48,866 bases of DNA from a virus: IMG/VR virus record IMGVR_UViG_3300022750_000018, positions 1-48,866 of that record; one strand, given 5' to 3'. The notes under the pieces were generated by a model. The model worked only from the letters and a program-made list of their open reading frames with translations, searched no databases and was not told where the DNA came from. Both the position numbers and the translations under genes were made by a program. Below are positions 4,570 through 46,047 of the stretch, one piece after another; within the stretch, counting starts at the first letter, position 1, and each line of letters starts with the position of its first letter.

Positions 4570-4588
4570 ACAACTTAGAATGAAAGGA
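4570..4588 (+). promoter_or_regulatory. Repeated 5' leader element (copy 1)
   Basis: ACAACTTAGAATGAAAGGA lies 7 bases before ATG 4596. The AAAGGA part acts as Shine-Dalgarno sequence. The upstream ACTTAGAATG is conserved beyond what ribosome binding needs. The same element occurs before nine other genes in this genome. Confidence 0.85.
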
Positions 4589-4595
4589 TTTAAAA

Positions 4596-4784
4596 ATGTT
4601 TTTCGCTCATATATCAGGTCTTGGCTTTGTTCGCTTCTTTAGTGTTGACGGAGGCCAAACTCAAAAAGTATTTTTTACAACCGACGTTGAAGCGGCAACT
4701 CGCTGGCCAACTGAGAAAGCCCTTGTTGAAGAAATAAACGGCGACCTAACTGGTTTTAAAATTCTTAGAATAGAATTTATCTAA
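4596..4784 (+). CDS. Hypothetical small early protein (62 aa)
   Basis: No family recognised. It is a mixed-charge soluble protein beginning MFFAHISGLGFVRFF, with no membrane segment or cysteine motif. It stands alone behind its own promoter and conserved leader and is followed by another promoter, so it is probably a monocistronic early gene. Such genes often encode host-takeover or antidefence factors, but nothing in the sequence shows this. Confidence 0.65.
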   Translation: MFFAHISGLGFVRFFSVDGGQTQKVFFTTDVEAATRWPTEKALVEEINGDLTGFKILRIEFI

Positions 4785-4790
4785 AATAAC

Positions 4791-4820
4791 TTTACTTCCC
4801 AATTAATTTAGGCGCATAAT
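4791..4820 (+). promoter_or_regulatory. Sigma70-like promoter
   Basis: TTTACT (4791-4796), an 18-base spacer, then CATAAT (4815-4820). Transcription would start near 4827, ahead of a strong terminator hairpin at 4850-4885 and then the gene at 4904. The GGCGCATAAT block also appears near the minus-strand promoter at 37934. Confidence 0.65.
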
Positions 4821-4849
4821 AAATCGTCCTATTGAGGGAAATGCTTTGA

Positions 4850-4885
4850 ACAACCGTGTTACATCCCCGTCACGGTTGTCTTTTT
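4850..4885 (+). terminator. Factor-independent terminator or attenuator in a leader
   Basis: The stem ACAACCGTG/CACGGTTGT (9 bp, perfect) has a 12-base loop and is followed by CTTTTT. It sits about 25 bases downstream of the predicted start from the 4791 promoter and just before the leader motif of the 4904 gene. It either ends a roughly 60-nt RNA, attenuates the downstream operon, or stops read-through from upstream. Confidence 0.8.
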
Positions 4886-4901
4886 AAAACTTAGAATGGA
4901 G
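4886..4901 (+). promoter_or_regulatory. Repeated 5' leader element (copy 2, short form)
   Basis: AAAACTTAGAATGGAG immediately follows the terminator T-run and precedes the ATG ATG at 4904. In this copy GGAG replaces AAAGGA as the ribosome binding site. Confidence 0.75.
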
Positions 4902-4903
4902 TT

Positions 4904-5140
4904 ATGATGGCCAACGGCATACTAAAGATCAAACGAACAAGCGATCAGTCTGTTGAGATCACGTTCATGAGCGCCCGGCAAGCTTCCGAGTTTCAGAACA
5001 AATGCGAAGATTTACAAGACGGGATAACGCCAAAGGAAGAAGGCATATCCGGCTATGACGAACCGCGCGAAGGCTATAAGCCAATCACCGATCGTATGCG
5101 GCAGGACGAGGCTGGCATGAGTGATGGAGACTTTGTATGA
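4904..5140 (+). CDS. Hypothetical small protein (78 aa)
   Basis: No family recognised. It is hydrophilic and acidic in the second half. Two adjacent ATG codons (4904, 4907) could both start it. Its stop overlaps the next start as ATGA, so it heads a tightly coupled run of small genes to 6277. Confidence 0.65.
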   Translation: MMANGILKIKRTSDQSVEITFMSARQASEFQNKCEDLQDGITPKEEGISGYDEPREGYKPITDRMRQDEAGMSDGDFV

Positions 5141-5400
5141 GCGAGCCTATTAAAATAAATGATCTTGTCGTGGTGAATAAAACGGGTTCGTGCCAATGCA
5201 CTGTCGGGATGGGAAAGATTTTCACCGTTAAAGAAATTCTTCAAGGATTTTTAGAATGCGGAATCTGCAAAACAATTGTTCGTGGTGGAATCGTTGCCAC
5301 GTCTGAAAGTGGCTGGACTTGCGAAATAAAACGGCTGACTAAGATAGACGGCTTCGATCCCGACGTTGTTGAGCAGGAAGACTTGGAGTTGGCAATATGA
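5137..5400 (+). CDS. Hypothetical small protein with cysteine pairs (87 aa)
   Basis: A CQC pair near residue 20 and CGIC near residue 42, plus a further cysteine (WTCEIK), suggest a possible metal-binding fold. It begins with a beta-rich segment (INDLVVVNKTG) typical of small SH3/KOW-like phage proteins. It is ATGA-coupled on both sides. Function unknown. Confidence 0.65.
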   Translation: MSEPIKINDLVVVNKTGSCQCTVGMGKIFTVKEILQGFLECGICKTIVRGGIVATSESGWTCEIKRLTKIDGFDPDVVEQEDLELAI

Positions 5401-5540
5401 ACATACGCTCATGGCTGTATACCATCGCGGAATTGATGGGAGACTATCGTGCTATCAAGAATGGCCGGATCGGGCAGAGGATCGCTCGACGGCTGGCAGG
5501 GCGTGTAACGGGCAAATTACTTGGGAGGATTTTTCGATGA
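5397..5540 (+). CDS. Small basic protein (47 aa)
   Basis: The ATG at 5397 overlaps the previous stop (ATGA). The product is strongly basic with an RIGQRIARRLAGRVTGK segment. Short Arg/Gly/Ala helical proteins of this type are common in phages and may bind nucleic acid or membrane. I know of no demonstrated function. The frame is supported by the coupling on both sides. Confidence 0.6.
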   Translation: MNIRSWLYTIAELMGDYRAIKNGRIGQRIARRLAGRVTGKLLGRIFR

Positions 5541-5728
5541 GAATAAAAGGCATTTACATTGGCGCAGGATTAGGAGCAACAGCTTACGAAGTCCAGATTC
5601 ATAAATTGGTGATTCGAATTCTCCGCCCTAAATTATACTTTTGGCCATATAGACATTTTCTTACTGGAAAATTAGTTTTCCCTGAAGCGATCGGATTTAG
5701 AATTTACCCTGTGAATTACACAACTTAG
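5537..5728 (+). CDS. Hypothetical small protein (63 aa)
   Basis: The start chosen is ATG 5537, coupled by ATGA to the 47-residue gene. A longer in-frame opening from 5366 would overlap two genes and is unlikely. The sequence is aromatic and basic, with no clear transmembrane segment and no known family. Confidence 0.55.
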   Translation: MRIKGIYIGAGLGATAYEVQIHKLVIRILRPKLYFWPYRHFLTGKLVFPEAIGFRIYPVNYTT

Positions 5729-5737
5729 AATGAAAGG
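5720..5737 (+). promoter_or_regulatory. Repeated 5' leader element (copy 3)
   Basis: ACAACTTAGAATGAAAGG lies 7 bases ahead of ATG 5745 and overlaps the end of the preceding gene. No convincing -35/-10 lies directly upstream, so this copy may work only in translation. Confidence 0.8.
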
Positions 5738-5744
5738 CAATATC

Positions 5745-5969
5745 ATGACAAAAGTAAAGAGAACAAAACCATCCGCAGCATTATTGGCGAAGCGCCGCGC
5801 GAAAGAAATCTGCACGCCTGTTATGGATTCCGCTTATAAAGACAGGCGTGCATTTATCAACAGCGTCAGCCCATTCATTAAGGGCGAGAAAGAAGAGTTA
5901 AAATTCTTTAAGGTTAAGGTGATGAGCATCTTCACAGGCGCGAGCGATCAGGATCGGGTGGCTGTATGA
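5745..5969 (+). CDS. Hypothetical basic protein (74 aa)
   Basis: The start at ATG 5745 follows the conserved leader. The N-terminal third is Lys/Arg-rich. No family recognised. It is coupled by ATGA to a 21-residue membrane peptide. Confidence 0.6.
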   Translation: MTKVKRTKPSAALLAKRRAKEICTPVMDSAYKDRRAFINSVSPFIKGEKEELKFFKVKVMSIFTGASDQDRVAV

Positions 5970-6031
5970 ACGCTGACTGGCTTCTATACATAATCATCGC
6001 TCTTATCATAGTCGATCTTGTCCTGGACTAG
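5966..6031 (+). CDS. Very short membrane peptide (21 aa)
   Basis: The ORF MNADWLLYIIIALIIVDLVLD is one hydrophobic helix with acidic ends. It starts by ATGA overlap with the upstream gene and ends 2 bases before another short membrane ORF. Coupling and composition support expression; the function is unknown. Confidence 0.45.
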   Translation: MNADWLLYIIIALIIVDLVLD

Positions 6032-6033
6032 CC

Positions 6034-6141
6034 ATGAACTACTTTCTATGGACATTCTGTTTCTGGACGGGCTTCCTTGGTTTCGCAACCTTGGAGGCGT
6101 ATCTTTTCTATCTAATCCTTGGAGGATTTCCAATTGTTTAA
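6034..6141 (+). CDS. Short membrane peptide (35 aa)
   Basis: ATG 6034 opens a very hydrophobic, aromatic peptide (MNYFLWTFCFWTGFLGFATL and onward), probably a single helix or hairpin. Its 3' end overlaps the next gene by 8 bases and contains that gene's GGAGGA ribosome binding site. Confidence 0.45.
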   Translation: MNYFLWTFCFWTGFLGFATLEAYLFYLILGGFPIV

Positions 6142-6277
6142 AAATCAACCGATAAAGCACGTCTCAGGCAAATATGGAAAGGTAAAATCTCGTGGTCACT
6201 TCCCAGATACAATCATCATCGAGTTCGAAGACGGCAGCGAAACAGAATGCTACTTTAAAGAAGCGACGCCAGCGTGA
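6134..6277 (+). CDS. Small SH3/KOW-like hypothetical protein, TTG start (47 aa)
   Basis: TTG 6134 is preceded by GGAGGA at a 7-base spacing, which decides the start. The product has a central KYGKVKSRGHFPDTIIIEF segment and an ECYFKEA end, like small beta-barrel phage proteins. Function not known. Confidence 0.55.
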   Translation: MFKNQPIKHVSGKYGKVKSRGHFPDTIIIEFEDGSETECYFKEATPA

Positions 6278-6554
6278 CCGATCTCATGAAATTGTATGTC
6301 GTTGCGGTTGTTATTCTTTCCCTCATCGGATGTTGGGCGGTAAGTGCAAAGGGCTGGCATGGGTCGAAGTCTACTGGTCGGAGCATTATGGTGGTGGTGA
6401 TTGCGCCATATGCTCCAACTTCCAAGAGCGCGACACCACCTGCGAGGTCGTCGATGGGGGTGAGCCGCCAACGGAATGCGCAGCGTTCAATACTCATCTA
6501 GGTTATCACGGCGTGCCTGTTCCGAAACGGTTGAAAAGAAAGAGTTGGGGATAA
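6192..6554 (+). CDS. Cysteine-rich zinc-binding hypothetical protein
   Basis: The C-terminal 85 residues are clearly coding: CRCGCYSFPHRMLGGKC, DCAICSNF, TTCEV and TEC form several Cys/His pairs expected to hold zinc. The start is uncertain. GTG 6192 has GGAAAGG upstream but overlaps the 47-residue gene by 86 bases. ATG 6330 would cut off the first cysteine cluster. No other standard start lies between them. It is probably a DNA- or protein-binding accessory factor. Confidence 0.6.
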   Translation: MVTSQIQSSSSSKTAAKQNATLKKRRQRDRSHEIVCRCGCYSFPHRMLGGKCKGLAWVEVYWSEHYGGGDCAICSNFQERDTTCEVVDGGEPPTECAAFNTHLGYHGVPVPKRLKRKSWG

Positions 6555-6555
6555 T

Positions 6556-6915
6556 ATGCAGAAGGCTTTAGCATTAGAAGGTGGATTTCACCCCGGTGTT
6601 TTATTCATCATCGTTAAGCGCAAGCTAGGCGTTAAGCGATTTTCAGGCGGCAAGGAAGTCTGGATTAAATATACGCGGGCGAGGCCGGGTTGGGCAACGC
6701 CTGAATCATTAACAAAATTCTGGAAAGAAAGCAAACGCATGACGGCGCTTACAGGAATACAGCATTCAGTCGATCACATCGTGCCGTTGGTTAATCATCT
6801 CGTTTGCGGGCTTCACTGCGAAGACAACCTAATTGTCAGGCCGCTATCGGAGAACGTCCGCAAGTCTAATCTATGGTGGCCTGATATGCCTTATGAACAG
6901 CCGGAGCTATTCTAG
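6556..6915 (+). CDS. HNH endonuclease-like protein (119 aa)
   Basis: The C-terminal half holds an HNH-type motif: SVDHIVPLVNH, VCGLHC, NLIVRP and SENVRKSNLWWPDMP. The DHIVPL histidine pair and the later asparagines match small phage HNH nucleases that act on DNA, either as homing enzymes or in recombination and packaging. It ends the plus-strand block and meets the minus-strand DUF1353 gene tail to tail with a 4-base overlap. Confidence 0.75.
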   Translation: MQKALALEGGFHPGVLFIIVKRKLGVKRFSGGKEVWIKYTRARPGWATPESLTKFWKESKRMTALTGIQHSVDHIVPLVNHLVCGLHCEDNLIVRPLSENVRKSNLWWPDMPYEQPELF

Positions 6916-7394
6916 TAAGACTGATCGTAATAAATCCCTTGCTCACAGATAGGCTTCCCATGAAAGTATTGATTCCCGAACAGCTTCACTCCCATATACA
7001 TCATCGCTGCTTTCCATCCGGGCACGCCGCAAGCGATAAGCGCATTGCGCAATACGGTATCAGCCCAAGGACGCTCAATCACGAATGGCTCGCGGGTAAA
7101 GAGATCGCACGCCTGAATTCCGATCCAAGGAGAATAGAGAGCGTCGTGCAACAAGCCAGCACGCCTGCCGATGTCGCCAAACATGAGATAGGCGAATGGG
7201 ATTTTCGGAACGCTGCAGAAATCGGTTACAAAATATTCCGGTATGATAACCTCGACAACCTTATTGAGCGCATCATCTTTAACATAAACATAGAATGGCT
7301 TGGTCGTTTGCCAGTAAATCTCTGCCGCTTTCCCTTCTTTATCGGCAAATCCCACTTCATCCGCGCTTAATCTGCTCTGAAACTCTATTTTCAC
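6912..7394 (-). CDS. DUF1353 family protein (160 aa)
   Basis: GTG start at 7394 with GAGGG upstream. The family signature is visible: YFVTDFCSVPKIPF followed by RRAGLLHDALY. DUF1353 proteins are common in tailed phages, often beside lysis or tail genes, with no proven role. It is the last gene of the minus-strand lysis block. Confidence 0.8.
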   Translation of the reverse strand: MKIEFQSRLSADEVGFADKEGKAAEIYWQTTKPFYVYVKDDALNKVVEVIIPEYFVTDFCSVPKIPFAYLMFGDIGRRAGLLHDALYSPWIGIQACDLFTREPFVIERPWADTVLRNALIACGVPGWKAAMMYMGVKLFGNQYFHGKPICEQGIYYDQSY

Positions 7395-7447
7395 GGCTAT
7401 CCCTCACAGGGCAATGTTCTAACAAACGATAATTTATTTCTAATACG

Positions 7448-7933
7448 TTAGGCTTCGCGAGTTGACGATTGAGCGGTGGTTTTCAGCAATGGCAGCGCAT
7501 AATCGATCTCAAAATCGCAATTCGGATAACGATATGCAGCAACCCGGCTCCGATCGAACGGCGCAATGGAAACCTTGTCGCCTTGGTTTCCGCCTAACAC
7601 CATCAGCCGTCCGCGATCGTCCTGCCCAACGACGAATCCAACATGGCCGCCACCTTCCCGATTAAAGACGACAATGCAGCCGTATGTCGGACGATCTAGC
7701 GCAATGCCGAATTCCTTCCACTTCAGAGCCCGATAATATTCCTTTGGATATTCCATGAGCGAGACTTTAAAGCAATACGCAGCGAACACTCCGCACCAAG
7801 GCGTGCTATCGTCCGACCACCATGCCTTTAATGTTGCAAGCATCTTTACGATCTCGGGCGCGGAATCCTTTCCGGGAATCTCTCTGGTGCCAAGGTATGA
7901 TCTGGCGACAGCTAGCCATTGCGGTTCAAGCAT
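7448..7933 (-). CDS. Endolysin, NlpC/P60-CHAP-like (TIGR02594 type)
   Basis: The protein is 161 residues from ATG 7933, which overlaps the upstream membrane gene by 8 bases and has GAGG before it; an in-frame upstream ATG at 7993 is less likely. The catalytic cysteine is in STPWCGVFAAYCF (Cys47) and the histidine in GGGHVGFVVG (His97). This is the layout of cysteine peptidases that cut peptidoglycan cross-bridges. There is no signal peptide, so it needs a holin. Two small membrane genes lie directly upstream. Confidence 0.85.
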   Translation of the reverse strand: MLEPQWLAVARSYLGTREIPGKDSAPEIVKMLATLKAWWSDDSTPWCGVFAAYCFKVSLMEYPKEYYRALKWKEFGIALDRPTYGCIVVFNREGGGHVGFVVGQDDRGRLMVLGGNQGDKVSIAPFDRSRVAAYRYPNCDFEIDYALPLLKTTAQSSTREA

Positions 7934-8240
7934 CGTTGCGCCTCGATAGGTCTTCTTCAACCCTTTGCGCCCTGCAATAATCAACAAGCTCATTTAGCAG
8001 AGTCAATACGAAAACGAGAATCCCAAACCACATAATTATATTCGGAGTTCCATTCGCATAAATCAGAGCGCCCACGCAAGCCGCAAATAGGCCAACAATC
8101 TTGATTATGTTCTTCGTATTTATCTTTGCTTCCAGCGCGATTAACAAGCTGGCGACGGCGATCGAGTAAAACACAGTCTTATTGCCTAGCCCATTAGGGA
8201 AATATTGAATCAGTAAGTCATGCATGATTATCCAACCCAT
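7926..8240 (-). CDS. Three-helix membrane protein, holin or holin partner
   Basis: The protein is 104 residues with three predicted hydrophobic segments (about 22-38, 45-63 and 68-88) and a charged C-terminus (CRAQRVEEDLSRRNDA). ATG 8225, 2 bases after the previous stop, is a possible alternative start. Its position between a holin-like gene and the endolysin suggests a lysis role, such as pore former or antiholin. No spanin was recognised. Confidence 0.65.
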   Translation of the reverse strand: MGWIIMHDLLIQYFPNGLGNKTVFYSIAVASLLIALEAKINTKNIIKIVGLFAACVGALIYANGTPNIIMWFGILVFVLTLLNELVDYCRAQRVEEDLSRRNDA

Positions 8241-8575
8241 TTTCTAAGTTGCGTTTTGACAACTTCTATCATGTCTTTATAGCTAATCTGCAATATCAAT
8301 TTGTTAGCTTTAGCGATGATAAGAAGGCCGAAAGCCCCGGAAGCAAACAAGACAAAATTCCGAATCGAAGGATCGACCGGATTCACCTTGCTGTAGTGCG
8401 CAACAATCGCTTCACCCATATAGATGCCTGCGAATATGCTGGCGATAAAAGAAGTCAGGATGTATCTGAACTTCATCTTTTCGTCGAGATAGCGGAGGGA
8501 AACGAACGCACCGCCGATGGCTGGCAAATATTCGAGAACCTTCTCGCCGATTTTCAGCCACCAGTCGTCGTTCAT
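8228..8575 (-). CDS. Putative holin (115 aa)
   Basis: ATG 8575 is preceded by GGAG at 6 bases, which favours it over ATG 8590/8587. Three hydrophobic segments: LPAIGGAFVSL, a helix with FIASIFAGIY, and NFVLFASGAFGLLIIA. The GG-rich first helix resembles the LydA-like phage holin group. It is coupled to the hydrolase gene upstream and the second membrane gene downstream. Confidence 0.65.
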   Translation of the reverse strand: MNDDWWLKIGEKVLEYLPAIGGAFVSLRYLDEKMKFRYILTSFIASIFAGIYMGEAIVAHYSKVNPVDPSIRNFVLFASGAFGLLIIAKANKLILQISYKDMIEVVKTQLRKWVG

Positions 8576-8586
8576 TTTTAACTCCA

Positions 8587-9450
8587 TCATTGCGTCTGCG
8601 TTATTTGGCGAATCATTTCAGCACGCTCTGCTGCTGTTATAGCGTGGCCAATATTCCATTCCTTGTATACAACCTTCGCAGAAGGTGAATGCAATTCTAT
8701 TGCCGCTTTTGCCTGCTCTCCGTGAATCTTTGGAGAGGTTGTATCCAGAGTCCCTGCATTCAGGTAGACAGTCGCACGCCCGATGCTGTTTAGAAGTCTC
8801 GCGCGAGGAGAGCGATTCACATAAATAGGATCGTCATCATTCACTGGTGCAGCGCCGAGGCCTGCCACCATGTCATTTTTAAGCGAGTTGTCAGAAGTCC
8901 CGGCATATAAAAGAGCAAGATCGAAAATCGGCAAATATAAAGAGGCTCGTCTAACAACACCGGGATATTTCCCCATGAAGTTCATTGCTGCCATCGTGCC
9001 ACCGGAATACGCAATTATATCGACATTAATGACGCCTGTTAGATATTTAACCCGGTCAACAACGGCCTTAATCTCATCAATCGAAGAATCTGAGCCTAAT
9101 GCCTGCGCCGTATTATTAACGCCTTTAAAATTGGGCGAAACGACAACAACCCGATCCATCTGCGCCAGTTCAGGAAAGTCATTCGGCGCTTGACTCATCG
9201 TTCCCGACCAAGAATGCAAAAATAAAATTATACGGTTGGCATTCGCTTTCGCGAAAAATCGATAGGGGATTGCTGGATTAAGGTTGTCGCCTTCTGTCCA
9301 ATATGTCCCATTCGTCACCATGCTGACTGGATAAGTAAAGCCAACGAGACGAGACTGAATATCGTCCAGCTTCGCGAGAACATCTTCTTCGGAGGAATAG
9401 CACGCCGTGCTTATTAAAAGCAGGAGAGCAAGAGCGAGTCTCTTAATCAT
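8587..9450 (-). CDS. Exported alpha/beta-hydrolase (esterase/peptidase-like)
   Basis: The protein is 287 residues. The N-terminus MIKRLALALLLLISTAC reads as a signal peptide, with a cysteine at 17 that could be a weak lipobox. The hydrolase core shows an oxyanion-type FLHSWSG (77-83), nucleophile Ser149 in AYSGGT, Asp236 in GTLDTT and His269 in IGHA. The substrate is unknown. Position beside fibre and lysis genes suggests action on host surface polymer or envelope lipid. Export of a phage enzyme is unusual. Its start overlaps the 45-residue gene by 8 bases. Confidence 0.75.
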   Translation of the reverse strand: MIKRLALALLLLISTACYSSEEDVLAKLDDIQSRLVGFTYPVSMVTNGTYWTEGDNLNPAIPYRFFAKANANRIILFLHSWSGTMSQAPNDFPELAQMDRVVVVSPNFKGVNNTAQALGSDSSIDEIKAVVDRVKYLTGVINVDIIAYSGGTMAAMNFMGKYPGVVRRASLYLPIFDLALLYAGTSDNSLKNDMVAGLGAAPVNDDDPIYVNRSPRARLLNSIGRATVYLNAGTLDTTSPKIHGEQAKAAIELHSPSAKVVYKEWNIGHAITAAERAEMIRQITQTQ

Positions 9451-9580
9451 CGCTTTCTTCCTTTGGTGCTTGGATTACATCAGGCTGCTCTTCTTGGAAA
9501 GTCTCAGTGTTTTTGTCAATGTCTTTTTTGCTATCAACGGAGCGCCATCCAGTTCCGTCTTTCTTTAATGCGTAAGCCAT
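9443..9580 (-). CDS. Small fibre-associated protein (45 aa)
   Basis: AAGGAG precedes ATG 9580. The start MAYALKKDGTGWRSVDS is a pattern seen in short phage proteins placed behind tail fibre genes, sometimes annotated as fibre assembly pieces. The rest is acidic. It is coupled to the fibre gene upstream and the hydrolase downstream. Confidence 0.7.
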   Translation of the reverse strand: MAYALKKDGTGWRSVDSKKDIDKNTETFQEEQPDVIQAPKEESDD

Positions 9581-9590
9581 AATGTTCTCC

Positions 9591-10610
9591 TTAAAGGTTA
9601 ATCTCGAAGCCTTGAATCCAACCGTTCCCGTTTGCTGCAGACGTGTTGGCGTAATATATATTTGCCGATTCTAAAATAAAATCAAAATTTGTTGTTTGAT
9701 ACGTTGTTGTCTGACTTATCGCAGGAGGAGGATTCGTCAATGATCCAGCACCACCATAGGAATTATTTGGCGCAAGAATCATCGAGCCTGCTGAATTTTG
9801 GTTCGATATTTGGCCTTGAATCTTTGCAGCAATTGGCGGTGCATAGGCTGAAATAGAAGTAGCAACCCACGTTGGAGGATTCGTGGCTGTTCCTGCAACA
9901 CCAGAAAAAGCAATCGGAAGATTCAAAACATTGCTTCCGGCAGCAACCTTATATTGCCAACTGCGTCCTGTTTGAATAAATGAAAGCGGAAATTTACTTC
10001 CTGTGTTATCCGTCTTAATTACGCCGACCAACGCGAAATGCGTATATCCAGAGGGCAGAGTTGGTGCCGTTGCGCTCGCCGATAATAGCCCTGCGATTGT
10101 TGTTCCATTCCAAATTATGTAACTGTATAGCCAAGTGTTGGCAGGGATAACGCCTGTATCGTAAGCATTAGCAGCGCCTGTTGCAGCACTATTAATTGTT
10201 ACATTTACGCCTGTCACGGTCTTATAAGCACCGCCCGCGCTTTTTAATACAACAGCGTCCGCAGTGATTAAAACAGAAGCATTCGTGCCTGTTGCTGAAG
10301 CATTAAGATTTTTAAACGCGCCTTGTGTCCCGCCAGAGCTAATCGCGCTGATGGCATTCGTGATGGCCGTCACTAGTGCCGAAACGGTTAATGCATCTGT
10401 AATATTCGTCGCTTGATTATCAGCGACGAACTGGGCGACAGCAGCCGTTATTTTCGAAGATTGTTTAAGGGCTTTATTTACAAGTTTCCTTTTCGCGATC
10501 CCGGCCTTGTTGCCTGTGGCTTGGTCTCCGTCAGCAGCATATTGTGCGTCGTCATAAATGTCGGTGGCCGAAGCTGTGTCAGCAAACGGTAGAATGTTAG
10601 AAGTTGCCAT
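9591..10610 (-). CDS. Tail fibre protein (339 aa)
   Basis: The N-terminus (residues 1-85) matches the attachment region common to many phage tail fibres: NILPFADTASAT, YAADGDQATGNKAGIAK, then LVNKALKQSSKIT and AQFVADNQ. The rest is Ser/Thr/Ala/Asn-rich beta-structured sequence. There is no chaperone domain and no visible enzyme motif. It follows the DUF2612 baseplate gene, the normal place for a fibre. Confidence 0.8.
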   Translation of the reverse strand: MATSNILPFADTASATDIYDDAQYAADGDQATGNKAGIAKRKLVNKALKQSSKITAAVAQFVADNQATNITDALTVSALVTAITNAISAISSGGTQGAFKNLNASATGTNASVLITADAVVLKSAGGAYKTVTGVNVTINSAATGAANAYDTGVIPANTWLYSYIIWNGTTIAGLLSASATAPTLPSGYTHFALVGVIKTDNTGSKFPLSFIQTGRSWQYKVAAGSNVLNLPIAFSGVAGTATNPPTWVATSISAYAPPIAAKIQGQISNQNSAGSMILAPNNSYGGAGSLTNPPPAISQTTTYQTTNFDFILESANIYYANTSAANGNGWIQGFEINL

Positions 10611-19299: not shown

Positions 19300-19329
19300 T
19301 TTACTTTGGGTGAAAATTAATATTATACT
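19300..19329 (+). promoter_or_regulatory. Sigma70-like promoter for an orphan small gene
   Basis: TTTACT (19300-19305), an 18-base spacer, then TATACT (19324-19329), on the strand opposite the structural genes. It is followed 13 bases later by a copy of the conserved leader. Confidence 0.7.
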
Positions 19330-19342: not shown

Positions 19343-19361
19343 ACAACTTAGAATGAAAGGA
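19343..19361 (+). promoter_or_regulatory. Repeated 5' leader element (copy 4)
   Basis: ACAACTTAGAATGAAAGGA, identical to the copies at 4570 and 41549 although it lies in the middle of the late region. It precedes ATG 19367. Confidence 0.85.
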
Positions 19362-19366: not shown

Positions 19367-19441
19367 ATGACACTCACAGCGATCGCAGGGCTTCTGCTAA
19401 TAAAGTTTATTGTGTCAATGACCCTGATGTTCTTAGATTAA
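19367..19441 (+). CDS. Orphan 24-residue membrane peptide
   Basis: The ORF encodes MTLTAIAGLLLIKFIVSMTL plus MFLD, a single hydrophobic helix. It is the only plus-strand gene between 6915 and 38067. It has a full promoter, the conserved leader and a 4-base tail overlap with the convergent fibre gene. Expression is well supported; function is unknown. Early membrane peptides often block superinfection or hit host membrane proteins, which is only a guess here. Confidence 0.6.
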   Translation: MTLTAIAGLLLIKFIVSMTLMFLD

Positions 19442-37521: not shown

Positions 37522-37540
37522 TCCTTTCATTCTAAGTTTT
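37522..37540 (-). promoter_or_regulatory. Repeated 5' leader element (minus-strand copy A)
   Basis: The minus strand reads AAAACTTAGAATGAAAGGA, 6 bases before ATG 37515. It shows that the element is used in both transcription directions. A short palindrome (CAAGCAA-A-TTGCTTG, about 37545-37559) lies upstream. Confidence 0.82.
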
Positions 37541-37569: not shown

Positions 37570-37902
37570 TTAAAGAATCACACTACTAATAGTGTACCTC
37601 TTGATATTACGATCCCACTTTAGGACACGGAACTTGCCCTTTAGCTTTCCAAGAATAGCGAATGCCACGCCCATGATGGTCGGATCGCCTAACGCTAGGA
37701 TGCTGTCACCAGCTTCATAGTCGTAAGCCTTTAAAGCCTCGGTCATCTGGCGCACTAAATCCTGAGTCGCGTGAAAGCTTGCCTGAGGAGGCATCATCGT
37801 GATTAGGATTCCGTGCTCAGCCGCCGGGCTTATATTTACGGATGGAACATAACTATCTCCAACCTTGCGATTGGGAACTTGCGTTACATATACAGTTGCC
37901 AT
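37570..37902 (-). CDS. Hypothetical conserved protein (110 aa)
   Basis: First gene of the minus-strand replication operon. Beta-rich (VYVTQVPNRKVGDSYVPSVNI), with an ALGDPTIMGVAFAILGK segment and a basic end. No family recognised. Its ATG lies inside the conserved leader motif itself (CTTAGAATG). Confidence 0.6.
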   Translation of the reverse strand: MATVYVTQVPNRKVGDSYVPSVNISPAAEHGILITMMPPQASFHATQDLVRQMTEALKAYDYEAGDSILALGDPTIMGVAFAILGKLKGKFRVLKWDRNIKRYTISSVIL

Positions 37903-37912
37903 TCTAAGTTTT
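37900..37912 (-). promoter_or_regulatory. Leader element with start codon inside (minus-strand copy B)
   Basis: The minus strand reads AAAACTTAGAATG, and this ATG is the start of the 110-residue gene. The purine-rich ribosome site AAAAGG is upstream rather than downstream of the motif. So the ATG within the motif can be a real start. Confidence 0.7.
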
Positions 37913-37997: not shown

Positions 37998-38027
37998 TTT
38001 ACTTTTATATTTTATTAAGCCTATAAT
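37998..38027 (+). promoter_or_regulatory. Plus-strand promoter of the accessory operon
   Basis: TTTACT (37998-38003), an 18-base spacer, perfect TATAAT (38022-38027). The leader motif begins 17 bases later. It is the best -10 match in the window. Confidence 0.75.
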
Positions 38028-38044: not shown

Positions 38045-38060
38045 ACAACTTAGAATGGAG
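38045..38060 (+). promoter_or_regulatory. Repeated 5' leader element (copy 5, short form)
   Basis: ACAACTTAGAATGGAG, then TAGGAA, ahead of ATG 38067. It is the same short form as at 4886. Confidence 0.8.
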
Positions 38061-40041: not shown

Positions 40042-40388
40042 ATAACGATAAAGTTTTAGAACTGGCAATAAAAGTATACGCAGAGACGCACGGAGGGATG
40101 GCATTAGTGCCGGATGAAAGCTATAAGCGATATCTACTCGCCTTCGCCCAAGCGCTTAATGAGCATAGGGGCGAGCCTCTGTTATATGTCCGGATGAGAG
40201 ACGGTGAAGTTGATTGGTCAGAAGATTGCGTTAGCCCAGACACTTCCTGCGGCGATAGCTATGAGCTTGAAGAAGGTTACACAGCCGTTCCACTCTACGC
40301 CGCCCCTGTTACTCCTGTAGGGGATGAGGTGGATGCAGACTTTAAATCCATGTTTTGGCGGCAAGTTGAGCGGACTGAAAACTTATAG
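40038..40388 (+). CDS. Phage accessory protein (116 aa), possibly 3'-frameshifted
   Basis: Features: LLAFAQALNEHRGEPLLYVRM and GYTAVPLYAAPV, typical of mosaic phage proteins. The frame stops at 40388, but the -1 frame continues open to 40549 without a stop. One extra A in GAAAACTT (40377-40384) would join them into about 172 residues. See the next entry. Confidence 0.6.
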   Translation: MNNDKVLELAIKVYAETHGGMALVPDESYKRYLLAFAQALNEHRGEPLLYVRMRDGEVDWSEDCVSPDTSCGDSYELEEGYTAVPLYAAPVTPVGDEVDADFKSMFWRQVERTENL

Positions 40389-40549
40389 CGGATATTAATT
40401 TTGTGTCTGATGAGCATATAACCGTTGGGGATAAGGCTGGAAGTGAATTGCTAGATATTGTCGCGAGCAAAGCGCTTGAAACATTAAACCATTTCCCGCC
40501 CCTACCTAAGCACCCTATACCTGCTATCCATCAACAAAAGGAATCATAA
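40379..40549 (+). CDS. Frameshifted continuation or separate GTG ORF
   Basis: Open frame reading KLIADINFVSDEHITVGDKA and on to a Pro-rich end (PPLPKHPIP). A GTG at 40403 would give 48 residues, but there is no ribosome site. The stop overlaps the ATG of the oxidoreductase gene. It is either the true C-terminus of the upstream protein separated by a one-base deletion or a separate short gene. Confidence 0.4.
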   Translation, partial: KLIADINFVSDEHITVGDKAGSELLDIVASKALETLNHFPPLPKHPIPAIHQQKES

Positions 40550-41466
40550 TGAAAATATACGGAGCCGGAATAGCCGGACTATTAGCAGCAAACGCCTTCC
40601 CAACAGCGCAGGTCTTCGAAGCAGGCCCGGAAGGAAGCACGACGCACAAAGCTCTTCTCCGCTTCCGCTCTTCCGCAGTAGGCGATGCTGTTGGCATAGA
40701 CTTCAAAAAGGTGAGAGTGCATAAGGGCATATGGCATGAAGGGCGCTTCATGACACCCAATATTCAATTAGCTAACTTGTACAGCCAGAAAGTCATCGGG
40801 CGCATAGCAGATCGCTCAATCTGGAATCTCGATTCCGTCGATCGCTATATTGCGCCAGAGGATTTTATCGAGCAGTTGGTGGATCGATGCCGCAATCGCA
40901 TAACGTATGATGCAGCCATAGGCGAAGTCGAGTTGAGCGATAGATCGAAAGAATCTGAGCCTGTGATAAGCACCATCCCGATGCCCGTTCTTGCTAACTA
41001 TTATTCAGGCAAGCAATATCTTCAAGCCCATAATATTGAATTTAAGTCAGCGCCAATCCATGTTGTGCGCTTCCGGGTATTCGACTGTGAGGCTTACCAG
41101 ACTATTTATTTCCCCGGAAAGAACACAGGTGTCTATCGCGCAAGCATAACTGGCGACATGTTAATTATCGAAGTGGCCGATGGGCATGCATCATTTCACC
41201 TTGAAGAAATAACGACTGCTTTCGGGATTGACCTTGGACAGATAGACGAGATCGAAAAGGTCAGCCAGCGCTTCGGAAAGATTGCTTCGATAAATGACAA
41301 ATGGCGCCGGAGGTTTATATTTGAAACGTCTCACGATCAGGCAATATATAGCCTCGGGCGCTTCGCAACTTGGCGAAATATCTTGCTCGATGACGTGCTA
41401 AAGGACATCAACGTGATTAAGAAGCTCATGAACGGCACATCTTACGAGCGGAAACTTGCTCAATAA
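40549..41466 (+). CDS. FAD-dependent oxidoreductase-like protein (305 aa)
   Basis: The N-terminal dinucleotide-binding loop MKIYGAGIAGLLAANAF, then VFEAG, is the GxGxxG...E Rossmann motif for FAD. VISTIPMPVL and the late YSLGRFATWRNILLDD resemble the amine-oxidase/UDP-galactopyranose mutase fold. The substrate is unknown. AAAAGGAATC precedes the start. It lies in the same accessory region as a divergent ThyX and an Nmad5-like gene. Confidence 0.75.
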   Translation: MKIYGAGIAGLLAANAFPTAQVFEAGPEGSTTHKALLRFRSSAVGDAVGIDFKKVRVHKGIWHEGRFMTPNIQLANLYSQKVIGRIADRSIWNLDSVDRYIAPEDFIEQLVDRCRNRITYDAAIGEVELSDRSKESEPVISTIPMPVLANYYSGKQYLQAHNIEFKSAPIHVVRFRVFDCEAYQTIYFPGKNTGVYRASITGDMLIIEVADGHASFHLEEITTAFGIDLGQIDEIEKVSQRFGKIASINDKWRRRFIFETSHDQAIYSLGRFATWRNILLDDVLKDINVIKKLMNGTSYERKLAQ

Positions 41467-41495
41467 TTTATTTTAACAATTATGTAAGAAATATG

Positions 41496-41524
41496 TTGCT
41501 TTATGGAAACCATTGGAGGATAAT
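41496..41524 (+). promoter_or_regulatory. Sigma70-like promoter (duplicate of the 4520 promoter)
   Basis: TTGCTT (41496-41501), a 17-base spacer, GATAAT (41519-41524), followed by TTTCTGCAGCAACGAAACTC and the leader motif. It is a clear sequence duplicate of 4504-4588. Confidence 0.75.
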
Positions 41525-41548
41525 GATTTCTGCAGCAACGAAACTCTT

Positions 41549-41567
41549 ACAACTTAGAATGAAAGGA
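41549..41567 (+). promoter_or_regulatory. Repeated 5' leader element (copy 6)
   Basis: ACAACTTAGAATGAAAGGA followed by ATTATC and ATG 41574. The identical motif and ATTATCATG spacing occur at 19343. Confidence 0.85.
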
Positions 41568-41573
41568 ATTATC

Positions 41574-41774
41574 ATGGTTAAGCTAGAAAAGGTTAATCCA
41601 AAGCCATTAATCGTAATTACTATTGATTACGACACTGCTCTTTGCCTTGGTGTTTTAATTAACAGAAATATCACAGAAGAATCTAAAATAACAGGAAGTC
41701 AAACTGACAATCCTGTCGTTACCGATTTAGGCAAATTAGCAGACGAACTTACATCATTATTGGCAGGAGATTAA
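41574..41774 (+). CDS. Hypothetical small protein (66 aa)
   Basis: The start is set by the leader; a longer in-frame opening from 41493 runs through the promoter and is rejected. Mixed sequence with PLIVITIDYDTALCLGVL. No family. Confidence 0.6.
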   Translation: MVKLEKVNPKPLIVITIDYDTALCLGVLINRNITEESKITGSQTDNPVVTDLGKLADELTSLLAGD

Positions 41775-41775
41775 A

Positions 41776-42261
41776 ATGAACACGAATTTACCAGAAATTA
41801 AAGTTATGAGCACCAAGGATTTGGTGAAAGAATACAACGAACGCACTGGCAAGACCGTGAAGAAATTCTCGACCCGTGCGGTTGGTGAGCGCATGGTGGC
41901 GGAGGCTCGCGTTAAGTCTGGCCTAATCGATAAGGTAAGCCCATCGATCCCGGAAATTAAGCCCGGCACCCCGATTGAAGCGCCGTTGCCCAAGAAGCTT
42001 TCCAACCGATCCGACGCAATCGCCCGTACTTGGACGGTGAAGGCTGTTGCCGATAAACGCGCCAAGCGTGATGGTGTAACGGTTGATAGCCACTTCTATA
42101 AATCCGTATTGGCAGCATTTAAATTCCTTGGACTCCCGCAAGAAAAGCATATCAAGTTCCGCATGGAATTGAAAGCGACAGGCGAAGCAGTTTGGAAAGA
42201 TGAAAAGAATCCGAATGGATTAAAGTTCAAGATCGTCAAACAACAAGATTTACCAGTATAA
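41776..42261 (+). CDS. Conserved phage protein (161 aa)
   Basis: The N-terminal motif MSTKDLVKEYNERTGKTVKKF with STRAVGERMV recurs in many phage and prophage proteins of unknown role. The C-terminal half (FYKSVLAAFKFLGLPQEKH, then RMELKATGE) is a compact basic domain. It may bind DNA, but this is not shown. Confidence 0.6.
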   Translation: MNTNLPEIKVMSTKDLVKEYNERTGKTVKKFSTRAVGERMVAEARVKSGLIDKVSPSIPEIKPGTPIEAPLPKKLSNRSDAIARTWTVKAVADKRAKRDGVTVDSHFYKSVLAAFKFLGLPQEKHIKFRMELKATGEAVWKDEKNPNGLKFKIVKQQDLPV

Positions 42262-42271
42262 TATCGAGCGA

Positions 42272-42291
42272 GCCGGGACGCGATTCCCGGC
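42272..42291 (+). promoter_or_regulatory. GC-rich hairpin between genes
   Basis: A 7-bp stem GCCGGGA/TCCCGGC with a 6-base loop and no T-run. It lies between the stop at 42261 and the leader at 42295. It may protect mRNA ends or act as a weak pause site. Confidence 0.55.
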
Positions 42292-42294
42292 GCT

Positions 42295-42313
42295 ATAACT
42301 TAGAATGAAAGGA
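42295..42313 (+). promoter_or_regulatory. Repeated 5' leader element (copy 7)
   Basis: ATAACTTAGAATGAAAGGA, ahead of ATG 42320 and directly after the hairpin. TATAAT at 42257-42262 is in range of a weak promoter, but no good -35 box is seen. Confidence 0.82.
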
Positions 42314-42319
42314 AGTGTC

Positions 42320-42601
42320 ATGAGGCATCAAGATATTAATGGCCACATACTTGGAACGGGCTCGTCAATACAGGTCGATTCCGTAACTTTAAAATTAAGT
42401 CGCGAAGACGCTTACGCGCTTTGCAATCTTCTTGGCGATTCAGACTTGGATAAAAATGTTCACGGCTATTTGGAATTAGACCAGATTGAAGCATTGAAGA
42501 GAATAGGCCGCGATCTAGGAATTTTCGTTGACCATTCAACCCGTCATAATTTGGGCGTTTTTAAGATTTCAGTGACGCCAGTCGAGAAGGATCAATCATG
42601 A
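42320..42601 (+). CDS. Hypothetical protein (93 aa)
   Basis: ATG 42320 follows the leader; an in-frame ATG lies inside the leader. Features: VTLKLSREDAYALCNLLGDSD and IEALKRIGRDLGIFV. No family. It is ATGA-coupled to the ThyX-like gene, so it may act with it. Confidence 0.6.
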   Translation: MRHQDINGHILGTGSSIQVDSVTLKLSREDAYALCNLLGDSDLDKNVHGYLELDQIEALKRIGRDLGIFVDHSTRHNLGVFKISVTPVEKDQS

Positions 42602-43317
42602 AAGTCACACTCATAAACCATACGCAAAATGCTGCCGAGTTGCTGCTATTTACGAAGAGCACAAGGCTTCAATTGAACTCGGTTTTAATGAATTCAATTG
42701 AAGAAATGCCTGAATGCGATAAAATGTCCGAACTCGAATACATGGCCAATACGATCCCTTCCTCGTGGGAGTTCGTCGATTACACGTTCCTCATCGAAGG
42801 AGTCAGCCGTGCTTATACGCACCAACAGGTAAGAACGCGAGCCGCGAGCTACGCCCAGCAGACCATGCGTGTGTTAGACATGGGCGAGTTTGATTATGTT
42901 TATAGCGACGCGATCTTGGCTGATGTTGAGGCCAAGCGTTGCGTTGATAGTTGTTTGAAAGGAATTAAGAGCCATTATCGTGAGTTGATTCTTCGTGGAA
43001 TCGCACCAGAAGACGCCAGAGGCATCCTGCCGACCAACATAGCCACCAATATCGTCTGCAAGTTTAACCTGCGCACGCTATCCGAATTGGCGAAGTCCCG
43101 CACCGGAGGCCGCACGCAAGGCGAATATCAGAAAGTGATTAACGCCTGCATCGATGCCGCGCTAGCCGTCCATCCTTGGGCAGAGAAGTTTCTGTTTACT
43201 CAATCTCGTGATTACTTTCAGGAGATTGAAGAATTCGCCTTGCGCAAATTCCCAGACTTAAAAGAGCGTGGTGAGTTGCTGAAGATCGTAGATAAAATGC
43301 GGAAGGAATCGAAATGA
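42598..43317 (+). CDS. Divergent flavin-dependent thymidylate synthase (ThyX-like)
   Basis: The protein is 239 residues. It has the ThyX core SRAYTHQQVRTRAASYAQQT (70-89) and the downstream ILPTNIATNIVCKFNLRTL. The usual RHRxxSxxxxS signature is changed to RTRAASYAQQT: His to Thr at 80 and the final Ser to Thr at 89. The family methylates dUMP using FAD, NADPH and methylene-folate. The changes could mean a diverged thymidylate synthase or a related base-modifying activity. Confidence 0.75.
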   Translation: MKVTLINHTQNAAELLLFTKSTRLQLNSVLMNSIEEMPECDKMSELEYMANTIPSSWEFVDYTFLIEGVSRAYTHQQVRTRAASYAQQTMRVLDMGEFDYVYSDAILADVEAKRCVDSCLKGIKSHYRELILRGIAPEDARGILPTNIATNIVCKFNLRTLSELAKSRTGGRTQGEYQKVINACIDAALAVHPWAEKFLFTQSRDYFQEIEEFALRKFPDLKERGELLKIVDKMRKESK

Positions 43318-43619
43318 TACGCAAAGACGGAAGATTCACGATCTATATGATCGAAACTCGCTCGCCGAATTATAGAAGTGGCGAATGGTTTAAGGCGTCG
43401 ATGGATCATTATTACAGGAGTAAATACGAGAACGGCTGCATGTTAGCTTCTGCGCCTTGCTGGCAGGAAACGAACGTGACGGGAACGTATGATAAACTCC
43501 GCGCGATCGACCTGTGCGCCAAGATTCAAGCTGATCATCCGAAAGAAGATTTCCGTGTTGTTGAAGTAAAAATCGAAATGCTTACAACAAGCGTTTGTGA
43601 GTTTCCGGGAAAGGCATGA
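43314..43619 (+). CDS. Hypothetical protein (101 aa)
   Basis: ATGA-coupled to the ThyX-like gene. Aromatic N-terminal half, three cysteines, C-terminal VVEVKIEMLTTSVCEF. No recognised family. Confidence 0.58.
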   Translation: MIRKDGRFTIYMIETRSPNYRSGEWFKASMDHYYRSKYENGCMLASAPCWQETNVTGTYDKLRAIDLCAKIQADHPKEDFRVVEVKIEMLTTSVCEFPGKA

Positions 43620-43777
43620 ACATCCCCTCAACAGGCAGCAACCCAGCGAAGACGAAGTTCTTCCGGGAAGTGGCGACGGCCTTCGAATTCCTCGCGGTCT
43701 TCTATACGCTCTCGGAGGAAGACCAACAGGCAATAATGGAACACATCACTCAACTACAGGCAAAGGTATTGAAATGA
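43616..43777 (+). CDS. Small hypothetical protein (53 aa)
   Basis: ATG 43616 overlaps the previous stop, and its stop overlaps the next ATG (43774). The sequence is a helical protein (FFREVATAFEFLAVFYTLSE, then ITQLQAKVLK). A longer opening in another frame from 43597 covers the same DNA, but the two ATGA overlaps favour this frame. Confidence 0.55.
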   Translation: MNIPSTGSNPAKTKFFREVATAFEFLAVFYTLSEEDQQAIMEHITQLQAKVLK

Positions 43778-44022
43778 ACATAAAACCAATTGCAATTATT
43801 TCAGATTTATCCCTCGGTAAATGCGCCGAAGTTATGCAAGACATGACAAAAGGATACACGCTTGACACCAATCTTTATGCTCTTAATTCTTTAGAATTAT
43901 GGACATATCAAAGAAAATCAGAAGCAGGTTGGGTAGACGTTGATCCTGAATTCATCGAACATTACCGTCTAAAAGGGCAAAAAATACGCCCTGTTTATTT
44001 AATAAATGAGGAGCAGTCATGA
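43774..44022 (+). CDS. Hypothetical protein (82 aa)
   Basis: The start at 43774 is set by ATGA coupling. Features: IAIISDLSLGKCAEVMQDM and SEAGWVDVDPEFIEHYR. No family. Confidence 0.55.
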   Translation: MNIKPIAIISDLSLGKCAEVMQDMTKGYTLDTNLYALNSLELWTYQRKSEAGWVDVDPEFIEHYRLKGQKIRPVYLINEEQS

Positions 44023-44156
44023 TACACTTATTTATTTCTTTTTGCTGGGGGATGTCTTTCGGAATAGGTTTGGCATATTTATCAAGAAAGAATAATGTGA
44101 TTGGGCTTATATGGATTGCCATCGGCATTCTTTTCTTACTCCAAGGGTATGCATGA
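44019..44156 (+). CDS. Small two-helix membrane protein (45 aa)
   Basis: ATG 44019 after GAGGAGCAGTC. Two hydrophobic segments (LFISFCWGMSFGIGLAY and VIGLIWIAIGILFLL) around a basic loop SRKNN. Start and stop overlap the neighbouring genes by 4 bases. Confidence 0.55.
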   Translation: MIHLFISFCWGMSFGIGLAYLSRKNNVIGLIWIAIGILFLLQGYA

Positions 44157-44641
44157 ACATAATAATCCTAGACATTGATAATTGCGTCAGCGGAGACGGC
44201 GATCGTATCAGGTTCATCCGCAAGGGCGAAGCCGATCCAGATAAAAAGTATCACGATTATCACAGCCTTGCCTTAATGGATAAGCCCGGTAATGCGCAGT
44301 TATTCCGGCGTCATCTTTGGAGCGAGGAATTACGATCGAAATCGCCGATAATCGTATTCAGCACGGCGCGGCCAGAAGCTTGGAGGACGATGACGAAGGC
44401 TTGGCTTGGCATGCATAAGATCGAATACAACAGGCTATATATGCGCCCGGAAGGGATGCATGAATCAGCGGTTTACGTTAAGAGGCATTTGCTTAAACAA
44501 ATCCTCACGGACTTTCGGGTAAGCACCAAAAACATAGTTGGTGCTTATGACGATAGGCAGGACATCATAGCGATGTACAAGGAAGCAGGCATTAAGAACG
44601 CGCAAGTTAAATTTATCCACACTAACCACATTGAACAATAA
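44153..44641 (+). CDS. HAD-superfamily phosphatase (162 aa)
   Basis: Motif I ILDIDNCV (nucleophile Asp7, Asp9), motif II IIVFSTARP (Ser70/Thr71) and motif III VGAYDDRQDIIAMYKEAGI. The layout resembles the phosphatase half of T4-type polynucleotide kinase (3'-phosphatase), without a kinase part. It could repair nucleic acid ends or act on nucleotides. ATGA-coupled to the membrane gene. Confidence 0.75.
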   Translation: MNIIILDIDNCVSGDGDRIRFIRKGEADPDKKYHDYHSLALMDKPGNAQLFRRHLWSEELRSKSPIIVFSTARPEAWRTMTKAWLGMHKIEYNRLYMRPEGMHESAVYVKRHLLKQILTDFRVSTKNIVGAYDDRQDIIAMYKEAGIKNAQVKFIHTNHIEQ

Positions 44642-44652
44642 GGAGTTATACC

Positions 44653-44835
44653 ATGATCATTAATCCATATGCTCGTCAAACTTTAAGTCCAGAAGCTTCA
44701 AAGCAATGGCATGAAAATCGCGCTTTCGAGAAGCAACAGAATCGTTGCACGGATTTTAGTCAGAAGCGCAACAGCCCTCGTGAATGCGCTCGCCGTGTTC
44801 GTCAGATGGCGCGTGATGCTGGGAGGACGGTATGA
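44653..44835 (+). CDS. Small basic protein (60 aa)
   Basis: AAGGAG before ATG 44653. Rich in Arg/Gln/Asn; C-terminal ECARRVRQMARDAGRT is a basic helix. Possible nucleic acid binding. Coupled to the next gene by ATGA. Confidence 0.6.
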   Translation: MIINPYARQTLSPEASKQWHENRAFEKQQNRCTDFSQKRNSPRECARRVRQMARDAGRTV

Positions 44836-45341
44836 AAGAAGCGATAAAACACGTAGCAGAATTTAGAGTTGGCCCGCCTTTAAATTTAAGGGCTGACACT
44901 TATGTTACCATTTACGATAAAGGAGGTGCGCAAGCGTCTGGCGTTGCTAGCAGGTTCAATTGGAGCGCAACTGGCGATCTTAACGAGATAGTTGCGTATA
45001 TCATTGGAACACAAGATAAAGCAGCGAACCCCACGCAAGCAAAAGTGACAGCAGCCACGATCCTCGCTGAGATGGGGCAGACCTATGCGGAACGGAATAA
45101 AGTCTATGGCAGCAACTATAAGATGGTTGGGCCGATAATGAAAATTCTATTCCCTGATGGCGTGCCAGAGCACTTACCATTTACAGACCAGTTCCATCTT
45201 TTCGAGCTAATCCTCGTTAAGCTTTCCCGGTTCGCAATCAGCGGCCTAACCCATGTTGATTCGATTCATGATTCTGCCGTTTATGGCTCCATGATCGAAG
45301 CAATTTTACACAACGAAGAAGAAAGGAAGCAGCATGAGTAA
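44832..45341 (+). CDS. DUF6378 domain protein (169 aa)
   Basis: The N-terminal part is beta-rich. The C-terminal domain has the family pattern AERNKVYGSNYKMVGPIMKIL, HLFELILVKLSRFA and HVDSIHDSAVYGSMIEAI. This helical domain is widespread in phages and may belong near MazG/nucleotide-handling proteins, but its activity is not established. It overlaps the SDR gene start by 8 bases. Confidence 0.75.
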   Translation: MKEAIKHVAEFRVGPPLNLRADTYVTIYDKGGAQASGVASRFNWSATGDLNEIVAYIIGTQDKAANPTQAKVTAATILAEMGQTYAERNKVYGSNYKMVGPIMKILFPDGVPEHLPFTDQFHLFELILVKLSRFAISGLTHVDSIHDSAVYGSMIEAILHNEEERKQHE

Positions 45342-46020
45342 TATTATTGTAACAGGCGGAAGTAGCGGCCTTGGAAAGGAAATTGTTGAAGTTCTTCGTC
45401 AGGACGGTCATCGCGTATTTAATTATGATGTTAGCAACGGAGATCATGTTTGCTATCCAAATTTAAGAGATGCTGGGTATTACCTTTTTGGTGATGTTGA
45501 TGTCCTAATCAACTGCGCCGGAATCAACAAGATCGACTATCTTGAAGACGTCATGGAACAGGATTGGGATCAGGTCATGGAAATAAACGCTAAAGGCATA
45601 TTCAAAATGTCTCAAGCGCTTCTTCCTCAGCTGATCGAATCCCAAGGCACCATCCTCAATATCGTCAGCAACGCCGCGCACATGCCGATGACGAGCAGTC
45701 TCGCGTATAACGCCTCCAAGGGCGCGGCGCATATCATGACCTTGCAACTGGCGCGTGAATTGACGAAGCGCCATGGCATCACGGTCTTTGGGGTCGCCCC
45801 GAACAAGCTTAAAGGCACCAAGATGTCTGAGAGCATAGACCAGCAGGTGGTGCGCACGCGTGGCTGGGATTTAGAGACTGCGCAGAAGTATCAACTGGCA
45901 GGATTATTGGCCGGAGAGGAGACCGATCCGAAAGAGGTTGCCGGATTGATCGCTTATCTACTACAATCGAAACAACGGCATAAATATCTCACTGGCACGA
46001 TTTTGCCATATGGGCTTTAG
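45334..46020 (+). CDS. Short-chain dehydrogenase/reductase (228 aa)
   Basis: A complete classical SDR: cofactor loop TGGSSGLG (7-14), NCAG (60-63), catalytic Ser112 in NIVSNAA, and Tyr125/Lys129 in YNASK. It should be an active NAD(P)H-dependent reductase. The substrate is unknown. A full metabolic SDR in a lytic phage is uncommon, and its overlap with DUF6378 suggests it is part of the accessory operon. Confidence 0.9.
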   Translation: MSNIIVTGGSSGLGKEIVEVLRQDGHRVFNYDVSNGDHVCYPNLRDAGYYLFGDVDVLINCAGINKIDYLEDVMEQDWDQVMEINAKGIFKMSQALLPQLIESQGTILNIVSNAAHMPMTSSLAYNASKGAAHIMTLQLARELTKRHGITVFGVAPNKLKGTKMSESIDQQVVRTRGWDLETAQKYQLAGLLAGEETDPKEVAGLIAYLLQSKQRHKYLTGTILPYGL

Positions 46021-46029
46021 TCGTTTTAC

Positions 46030-46047
46030 ATAACTTAGAATGAAAGG
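46030..46047 (+). promoter_or_regulatory. Repeated 5' leader element (copy 8)
   Basis: ATAACTTAGAATGAAAGG lies before ATG 46053 of the GIY-YIG gene, 9 bases after the SDR stop. So even a mobile endonuclease gene uses the phage leader. Confidence 0.8.

Follow-up and report, generated by a model that had tools for sequence, protein, structure and literature searches.

The closest described counterpart of the element considered here is the start-associated sequence (SAS) of the cluster K mycobacteriophages, a short asymmetric repeat present in 7–19 copies at the starts of non-structural genes, which includes the Shine-Dalgarno (SD) sequence and in part of its copies is linked to promoters (ESAS) (Pope et al. 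2011, PMC3203893; PMC11373665; PMC12699233). SAS have been reported since 2011 and still lack a mechanism, and because they overlap the SD the two have been difficult to tell apart. Here we describe an 8-mer, AACTYAGA, that precedes genes in an uncultured phage (IMG/VR virus record IMGVR_UViG_3300022750_000018, positions 1–48,866; this whole stretch of 48,866 nt is called the window) and in its relatives. Like SAS, it is a short asymmetric repeat found in many copies a few to ~25 nt from start codons (10 copies in the window, 52 of 55 in relatives), it belongs to non-structural genes, and its conservation extends past the part that pairs as an SD. The cluster K consensus, GGGATAGGAGCCC, lies 3–9 nt from the start and is not matched by the leader described here, which is AACTYAGA plus an SD; the cluster K repeat has the SD inside it, whereas the conserved 8-mer described here forms a module of its own, apart from the SD; and no 17-bp inverted repeat was found here, unlike in cluster K. 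Since the sequence is different, we regard AACTYAGA as SAS-like but not as a cluster K SAS.

Other comparisons are more distant. Citrobacter phage Mordin carries a 26-bp repeat before the starts of 8 hypothetical genes on one arm, which its authors liken to SAS (PMC4611695); that repeat is unrelated in sequence and phage, is longer and is not shown to be modular. Extended SD motifs of Staphylococcus aureus are ribosome-binding signals longer than the core SD whose extension pairs with the anti-SD (PMC13009471); the present leader likewise exceeds the core SD, but its extra part cannot pair with the anti-SD. For the enhancer of T7 gene 10 (g10RBS Enh), 16S pairing was proposed and later unsupported, ribosomal protein S1 is the current proposal, and the enhancer is not needed in Agrobacterium (PMC8748333). 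It resembles AACTYAGA in being a short stretch immediately 5' of the SD and may serve as a functional parallel, although it is A/U-rich and serves one gene, whereas here a strict 8-mer marks a regulon, and the two have only AACTT in common. The g10 leader in common use has its AACT 23 nt ahead of the ATG.

The first-pass annotation of the window had reported a leader in ten near-identical copies on both strands. The ten copies are real and start-adjacent: AACTYAGA is extended in the window phage to AACTTAGAATG, which is exact at ten sites, every copy lying just 5' of a start codon, and ACTTAGAATG matches each of the ten annotated sites exactly. The plus-strand coordinates had been placed 2–3 nt early, however, and the continuation AAAGG[A/C] is present in only seven copies. 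Those at 4888+ and 38047+ continue with GAG and have only AACTTAGAATG in common, and at 37910- the SD (AGGA) lies 5' of the motif, whose own ATG is the start codon. Allowing at most one mismatch, AACTTAGAATG was found 13 times in the window against 0.71 expected; the longer ACTTAGAATGAAAGGA with up to three mismatches gave 7 matches against 0.44 expected from dinucleotide shuffles, 0 of 100 of which reached 7. ACTTAGAATGAAAGGA is exact five times (4573+, 19346+, 41552+, 42298+ and 37537-) and ends in C twice (5723+ and 46033+). Counted from the A of AACT, the likely start codon lies 24, 16, 23, 22, 20, 23, 23, 21, 23 and 8 nt away, with the start of the open reading frame (ORF) behind 19345+ taken as 19367 (corrected on direct reading).

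The phage collection gave no close relative at the nucleotide level, and a protein search with phrog_4828 led to uncultured relatives with the same replication cassette, in the order phrog2378, phrog5888, phrog4828, g41776, thyX, HAD, SDR, dnaQ, dnaE, nuclease and SNF2. These relatives (L-numbers are labels of the compared sequence records, and site numbers are positions in them) share roughly 32–74% protein identity with the window phage, depending on the gene, and have a GC content of 49–65%. In them, AACTCAGAAAGGA or variants of it precede genes, and a scan for AACTCAGAAAGGA-N(4-8)-ATGAAA yielded additional members of the same clade; a literature search for AACTCAGAAAGGA gave no match. Among the relatives from the protein search, AACTNAGA occurs 55 times, 52 of them in front of an ORF start and mostly 19–23 nt off, against an average of 5.8 for shuffled 8-mers. 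When at most two mismatches were allowed, AACTCAGAAAGGA ahead of ATG gave 34 matches and only 0–2 after shuffling of its 5' seven bases alone. Over 19 whole records, AACTYAGAANGG occurs in dozens of copies and the reversed pattern once, with 0 copies in eight named phages with related cassettes (Tedan, Pluto, RHph_I65, 023Pt_psg01, WTB, BcepF1, Bas100 and E2005-C). In a relaxed set, AACT and AGAA (G excepted) are kept in 47–51 of 51 copies and GG in 41–44; this set was chosen by similarity and is about one-fifth background by its own controls, making the per-position figures indicative only. The fifth base is T in 10/10 copies in the window, C in 10/10 in L105 and mixed in other members. The earlier proposal would have failed had ACTTAG been absent from relatives; it was found, mostly as ACTCAG, and AACTCAG is the most frequent form. 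Relatives picked by tail sheath, whose DNA was mostly virion region, had 0 copies of ACTTAGAATG. An exact ACAACTTAGAATGAAAGG in one other IMG/VR contig (L008) is coding sequence (QLRMKG) at a gene end in an unrelated virus and was set aside as chance.

The natural variants indicate that the leader is built of two parts, the conserved 8-mer and an ordinary SD usually just 3' of it. Across the clade the 8-mer is followed by AAAGGA, GGAG, GAAGGAG or no SD; in L105, L099, L094, L096 and L100, AACTNAGA is continued by AAAAGGAAAC, AAGAAGGAG, ATTTTTGGAG, ACTGGAGG, ATTGGAG or ACGGAG. The two parts in places stand 6 nt apart or occur in reversed order, or the SD is missing, as at L105 9839-, where AACTCAGAATG forms the start, and at L100 1878 (AACTCAGAACCATG), both without a clear SD. 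A tandem pair, AACTCAGAAAGGAG-AACTCAGAATG, is present in L105. We read the window form AACTTAGA-ATGAAA-GGA as the same element with its SD shifted ~4 nt downstream, AACT keeping a distance to the start codon within the range of the clade. This form contains an ATG, which had been called a real start at 37902, and orthologues in L103 and L105 indeed start at the same place. At 4888 and 38047 the ORFs that begin at the inner ATG have only three and two codons, and we take this ATG to be fortuitous at most sites and a real start only at 37902; a role as the start of an upstream ORF was rejected on its inconsistent frames and lengths and its absence from most relatives.

In many rDNAs the anti-SD is followed by CTCCTTTCTAAG, the complement of CTTAGAAAGGAG, and the leader could therefore be only an extended SD in which CTTAGAAAGGAG pairs with this stretch, an account that we judge quite improbable. 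With a precursor-length (extended) tail, CTTAGA...AAGGA can pair at −10.9 rather than −9.6 kcal/mol, a gain of 1.3. AAAGG and GAAAG are the dominant SD words in the window and therefore suggest a host with a 16S tail of the CCUCCUUUC type, which would also favour this account, as would RNA-Seq-mapped tails extending to ...UUUCUA in several species (PMC6288834). In most species tested, however, such tails have been mapped to a mature end at CCUCCUUUCU or CCUCCUUUCUA (PMC6288834; PMC5732282), and with a mature tail stopping at CCUCCUUUCU(A) the added pairing is lost, the duplex energy with CCUCCUUUCU being −9.6 kcal/mol both with and without AACTTAG. Furthermore, the most frequent form, AACTCAG, would have a C-A mismatch, AACT is conserved yet unpairable, and the 8-mer is retained when it lies away from the SD, 3' of the SD or without one. 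A scan of 84,980 species genomes turned up 2 with a 16S tail that complements AACTYAGAAAGGA in full, a lower bound as some assemblies lack 16S. One of these two is deltaproteobacterial (L146, the 16S of MGRG01000014.1), with a tail, CCTCCTTTCTAAGTT, fully complementary to AACTTAGAAAGG. Elsewhere in 16S rRNA, only TCTCAGTT offered pairing, in a single unrelated 16S. The whole block thus goes largely unmatched by known mature 16S 3' tails, and we conclude that the SD half would pair normally while the 8-mer has no need to pair. The suggestion of a role beyond 16S pairing for the 5' part finds support in the comparison, in which relatives keep AACTYAGA while the SD varies, with no added pairing to the mature tail; the specific roles put forward, an RNA-binding regulator, mRNA stability or preferential early translation, are candidates.

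The genes that carry the 8-mer form a particular class. None of 153 orthologues of terL, portal, protease and sheath has it, while five non-virion families do: phrog2378 (6/11), phrog4828 (8/12), g41776 (6/12), dnaQ (3/8) and thyX (2/11; 10/10 in a motif-selected and hence biased set). In the same comparison it was not found at dnaE, SNF2 or SDR orthologues. The absence of the leader from virion operons, noted in the first-pass annotation, holds, yet the 19345+ copy lies antisense inside the virion block. In the window, a small ORF separates a leader from g41776 and likewise from thyX; judged on gene order alone, small genes seem to have come in between leader and conserved gene.

Individual copies in the window differ in their surroundings. 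The form AACTTAGAATGAAAGGA at 4572..4588 (+) precedes a 62-amino-acid (aa) ORF (start 4596) and follows sigma70-like boxes, TTTACT(4520)-17-GATACT(4543), recognized by direct reading; AACTTAGAATGGAG with a GGAG-type SD at 4888..4901 (+) follows the inverted repeat AACCGTG..CACGGTT and precedes a 78-aa ORF (start 4904); and AACTTAGAATGAAAGGC at 5722..5738 (+) precedes a 74-aa ORF (start 5745). At 19345..19361 (+), AACTTAGAATGAAAGGA follows TTTACT (19300-19305)-18-TATACT (19324-19329) and precedes a 24-aa hydrophobic ORF (ATG 19367). This ORF (MTLTAIAGLLLIKFIVSMTLMFLD, 19367-19441 (+)), with its own promoter-like boxes and leader, lies antisense between the sheath and tail-fibre genes. On the minus strand, AACTTAGAATGAAAGGA at 37522..37538 precedes a 68-aa ORF (start 37515), and at 37900..37910 the ATG (37902) within AACTTAGAATG starts a phrog_5888/Pam3_gp32-like gene, with the SD AGGA upstream. 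The leader AACTTAGAATGGAG at 38047..38060 (+), behind promoter-like TTTACT-18-TATAAT at 37998-38027, serves a 251-aa DUF2786/DUF7168 gene (phrog_421, start 38067). Further plus-strand copies are AACTTAGAATGAAAGGA at 41551..41567 before a 66-aa ORF (start 41574), AACTTAGAATGAAAGGA at 42297..42313, directly preceded by the hairpin GCCGGGA..TCCCGGC and lying before a 93-aa ORF (start 42320) one gene ahead of thyX, and AACTTAGAATGAAAGGC at 46032..46048 before a GIY-YIG homing-endonuclease-like gene (start 46053). An extra AACTTAGA at 8243-8250 (-), 5' of a holin-like gene, doubles as the coding end (QLRKWVG) of the upstream gene and is either chance or an additional site.

The record itself has identical ends, 1-126 matching 48736-48861, and is therefore probably a complete circularised genome of ~48.7 kb, with a DnaE-type polymerase gene split by the record ends. 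PHROG matches (sheath phrog_205, terL, portal, protease and primase) mark a contractile-tailed phage, and Pam3 gp32/33/34-like families are present. Its replication cassette includes the DnaE-type polymerase, ThyX, and genes recognized from sequence as an SNF2-like helicase and a DnaQ-like exonuclease. An Nmad5 domain (nucleotide modification associated) at 47232-47786 (+), E=2e-11, raises the possibility that the phage DNA is modified.

Striking hairpins adjoin the leader at window 42297 and at L098 3515, L102 10159 and L132 6807, and the leader might act in mRNA processing or stability, being cut by an RNase or shielding from one together with such hairpins. We consider this very improbable: across the whole set, upstream folding energy is like that of other SD-bearing starts (mean −6.4 versus −5.7, p=0.44). 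That upstream hairpins generally belong to the element was likewise dismissed, as they are not enriched overall. Least probable of all is that the shared sequence is functionless family resemblance left by leader and small-gene cassettes copied round the genome. Such copying would account for the 75% identity over 77 nt before 4572 and 41551, the tandem copy in L105, and the window's small ORFs between leaders and conserved genes that bear the leader in relatives; most flanks, however, are unrelated while 8–11 nt remain identical, and the motif is kept with a fixed start distance at ~32–74% protein identity and 49–65% GC. The promoter-to-leader stretches at 4486-4592 and 41462-41571 (+) are ~75% identical and resemble a duplicated leader cassette.

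The 8-mer could also be a transcriptional element (promoter part, start-site element or operator) that sits near start codons by virtue of short 5' untranslated regions (5'UTRs), which we hold to be unlikely, though with a real if minor chance. A subset of sites across the clade lies 15–30 nt behind boxes of the TTTACT/TTGCC...[CT]ATAAT type; in the window, the copies at 19345, 38047, 4572 and 37910 follow promoter-like boxes at this distance. The uniformity of the fifth base within the window and L105 is as expected with a co-evolving trans factor. Most copies, however, lack such boxes, and many stand a few nucleotides after a stop codon within operons (for example L114 6571 and L128 6859). 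Boxes precede a subset only, at distances of 15–60 nt, the 8-mer is not palindromic, the tightest spacing (19–23 nt) is to the start codon, and at 37910-, L103 3424- and L105 9839- an ATG lies directly 3' of the 8-mer. Several relatives share a promoter-like TTGCC-N17/18-[GC]CATAAT (L098 2876, L101 10982, L103 4557, L113 5012, L114 6352 and others), followed by a variable hairpin at ~+1 (CGGTC..GACCG, for instance) and then the leader; a conserved 5'-terminal stem-loop with compensatory changes is possible at these sites.

The occurrence of copies both behind promoters and inside operons therefore links the 8-mer with the start codon more than with transcription, and because the distance to the start codon is the constant feature, we favour, with somewhat better than even confidence, a clade-specific start-associated sequence acting in mRNA at translation initiation. 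The comparisons establish where the 8-mer sits and on which strand, that it can be separated from the SD, which class of genes it marks, that it is conserved in the clade and that it lacks complementarity to known mature 16S tails. S1 and bS21 lie near the mRNA exit site of the 30S subunit. At ~21 nt 5' of the start codon, the 8-mer would span roughly −21 to −14, on the 5' side of the SD, where mRNA exits the 30S platform. It would be read in RNA during 30S binding by a sequence-specific factor, either an RNA-binding protein of the phage or a component of the host's 30S subunit (such as S1 or bS21), that would raise or time translation of the marked non-virion regulon, leaving virion genes unmarked. 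Two results weigh against this reading, the first leaving a transcriptional role some chance: in a pooled set, [CTG]ATAAT lies 18–50 nt upstream of 12/78 sites versus 20/584 other starts (p=1e-4), and a Pfam scan of 20 non-virion proteins gave no known RNA-binding domain and no candidate reader.

Because the 8-mer is strict and its fifth base uniform within the window and L105, a dedicated factor is preferred over the loose preference of S1. More tentatively, the phage clade might encode or recruit a sequence-specific RNA-binding factor that recognizes AACTYAGA in the 5'UTR at the mRNA exit side of the 30S subunit and switches the non-virion regulon, with the fifth base co-evolving. AACTYAGA is probably a phage-specific tag that sets the timing or strength of translation of the genes it marks. 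With its 8-mer and SD separable, the clade offers natural variants for asking whether phages use a second, non-SD 5'UTR code, and should the 8-mer prove to act as an enhancer or regulator site independently of the SD, it would also be of use as an expression part.

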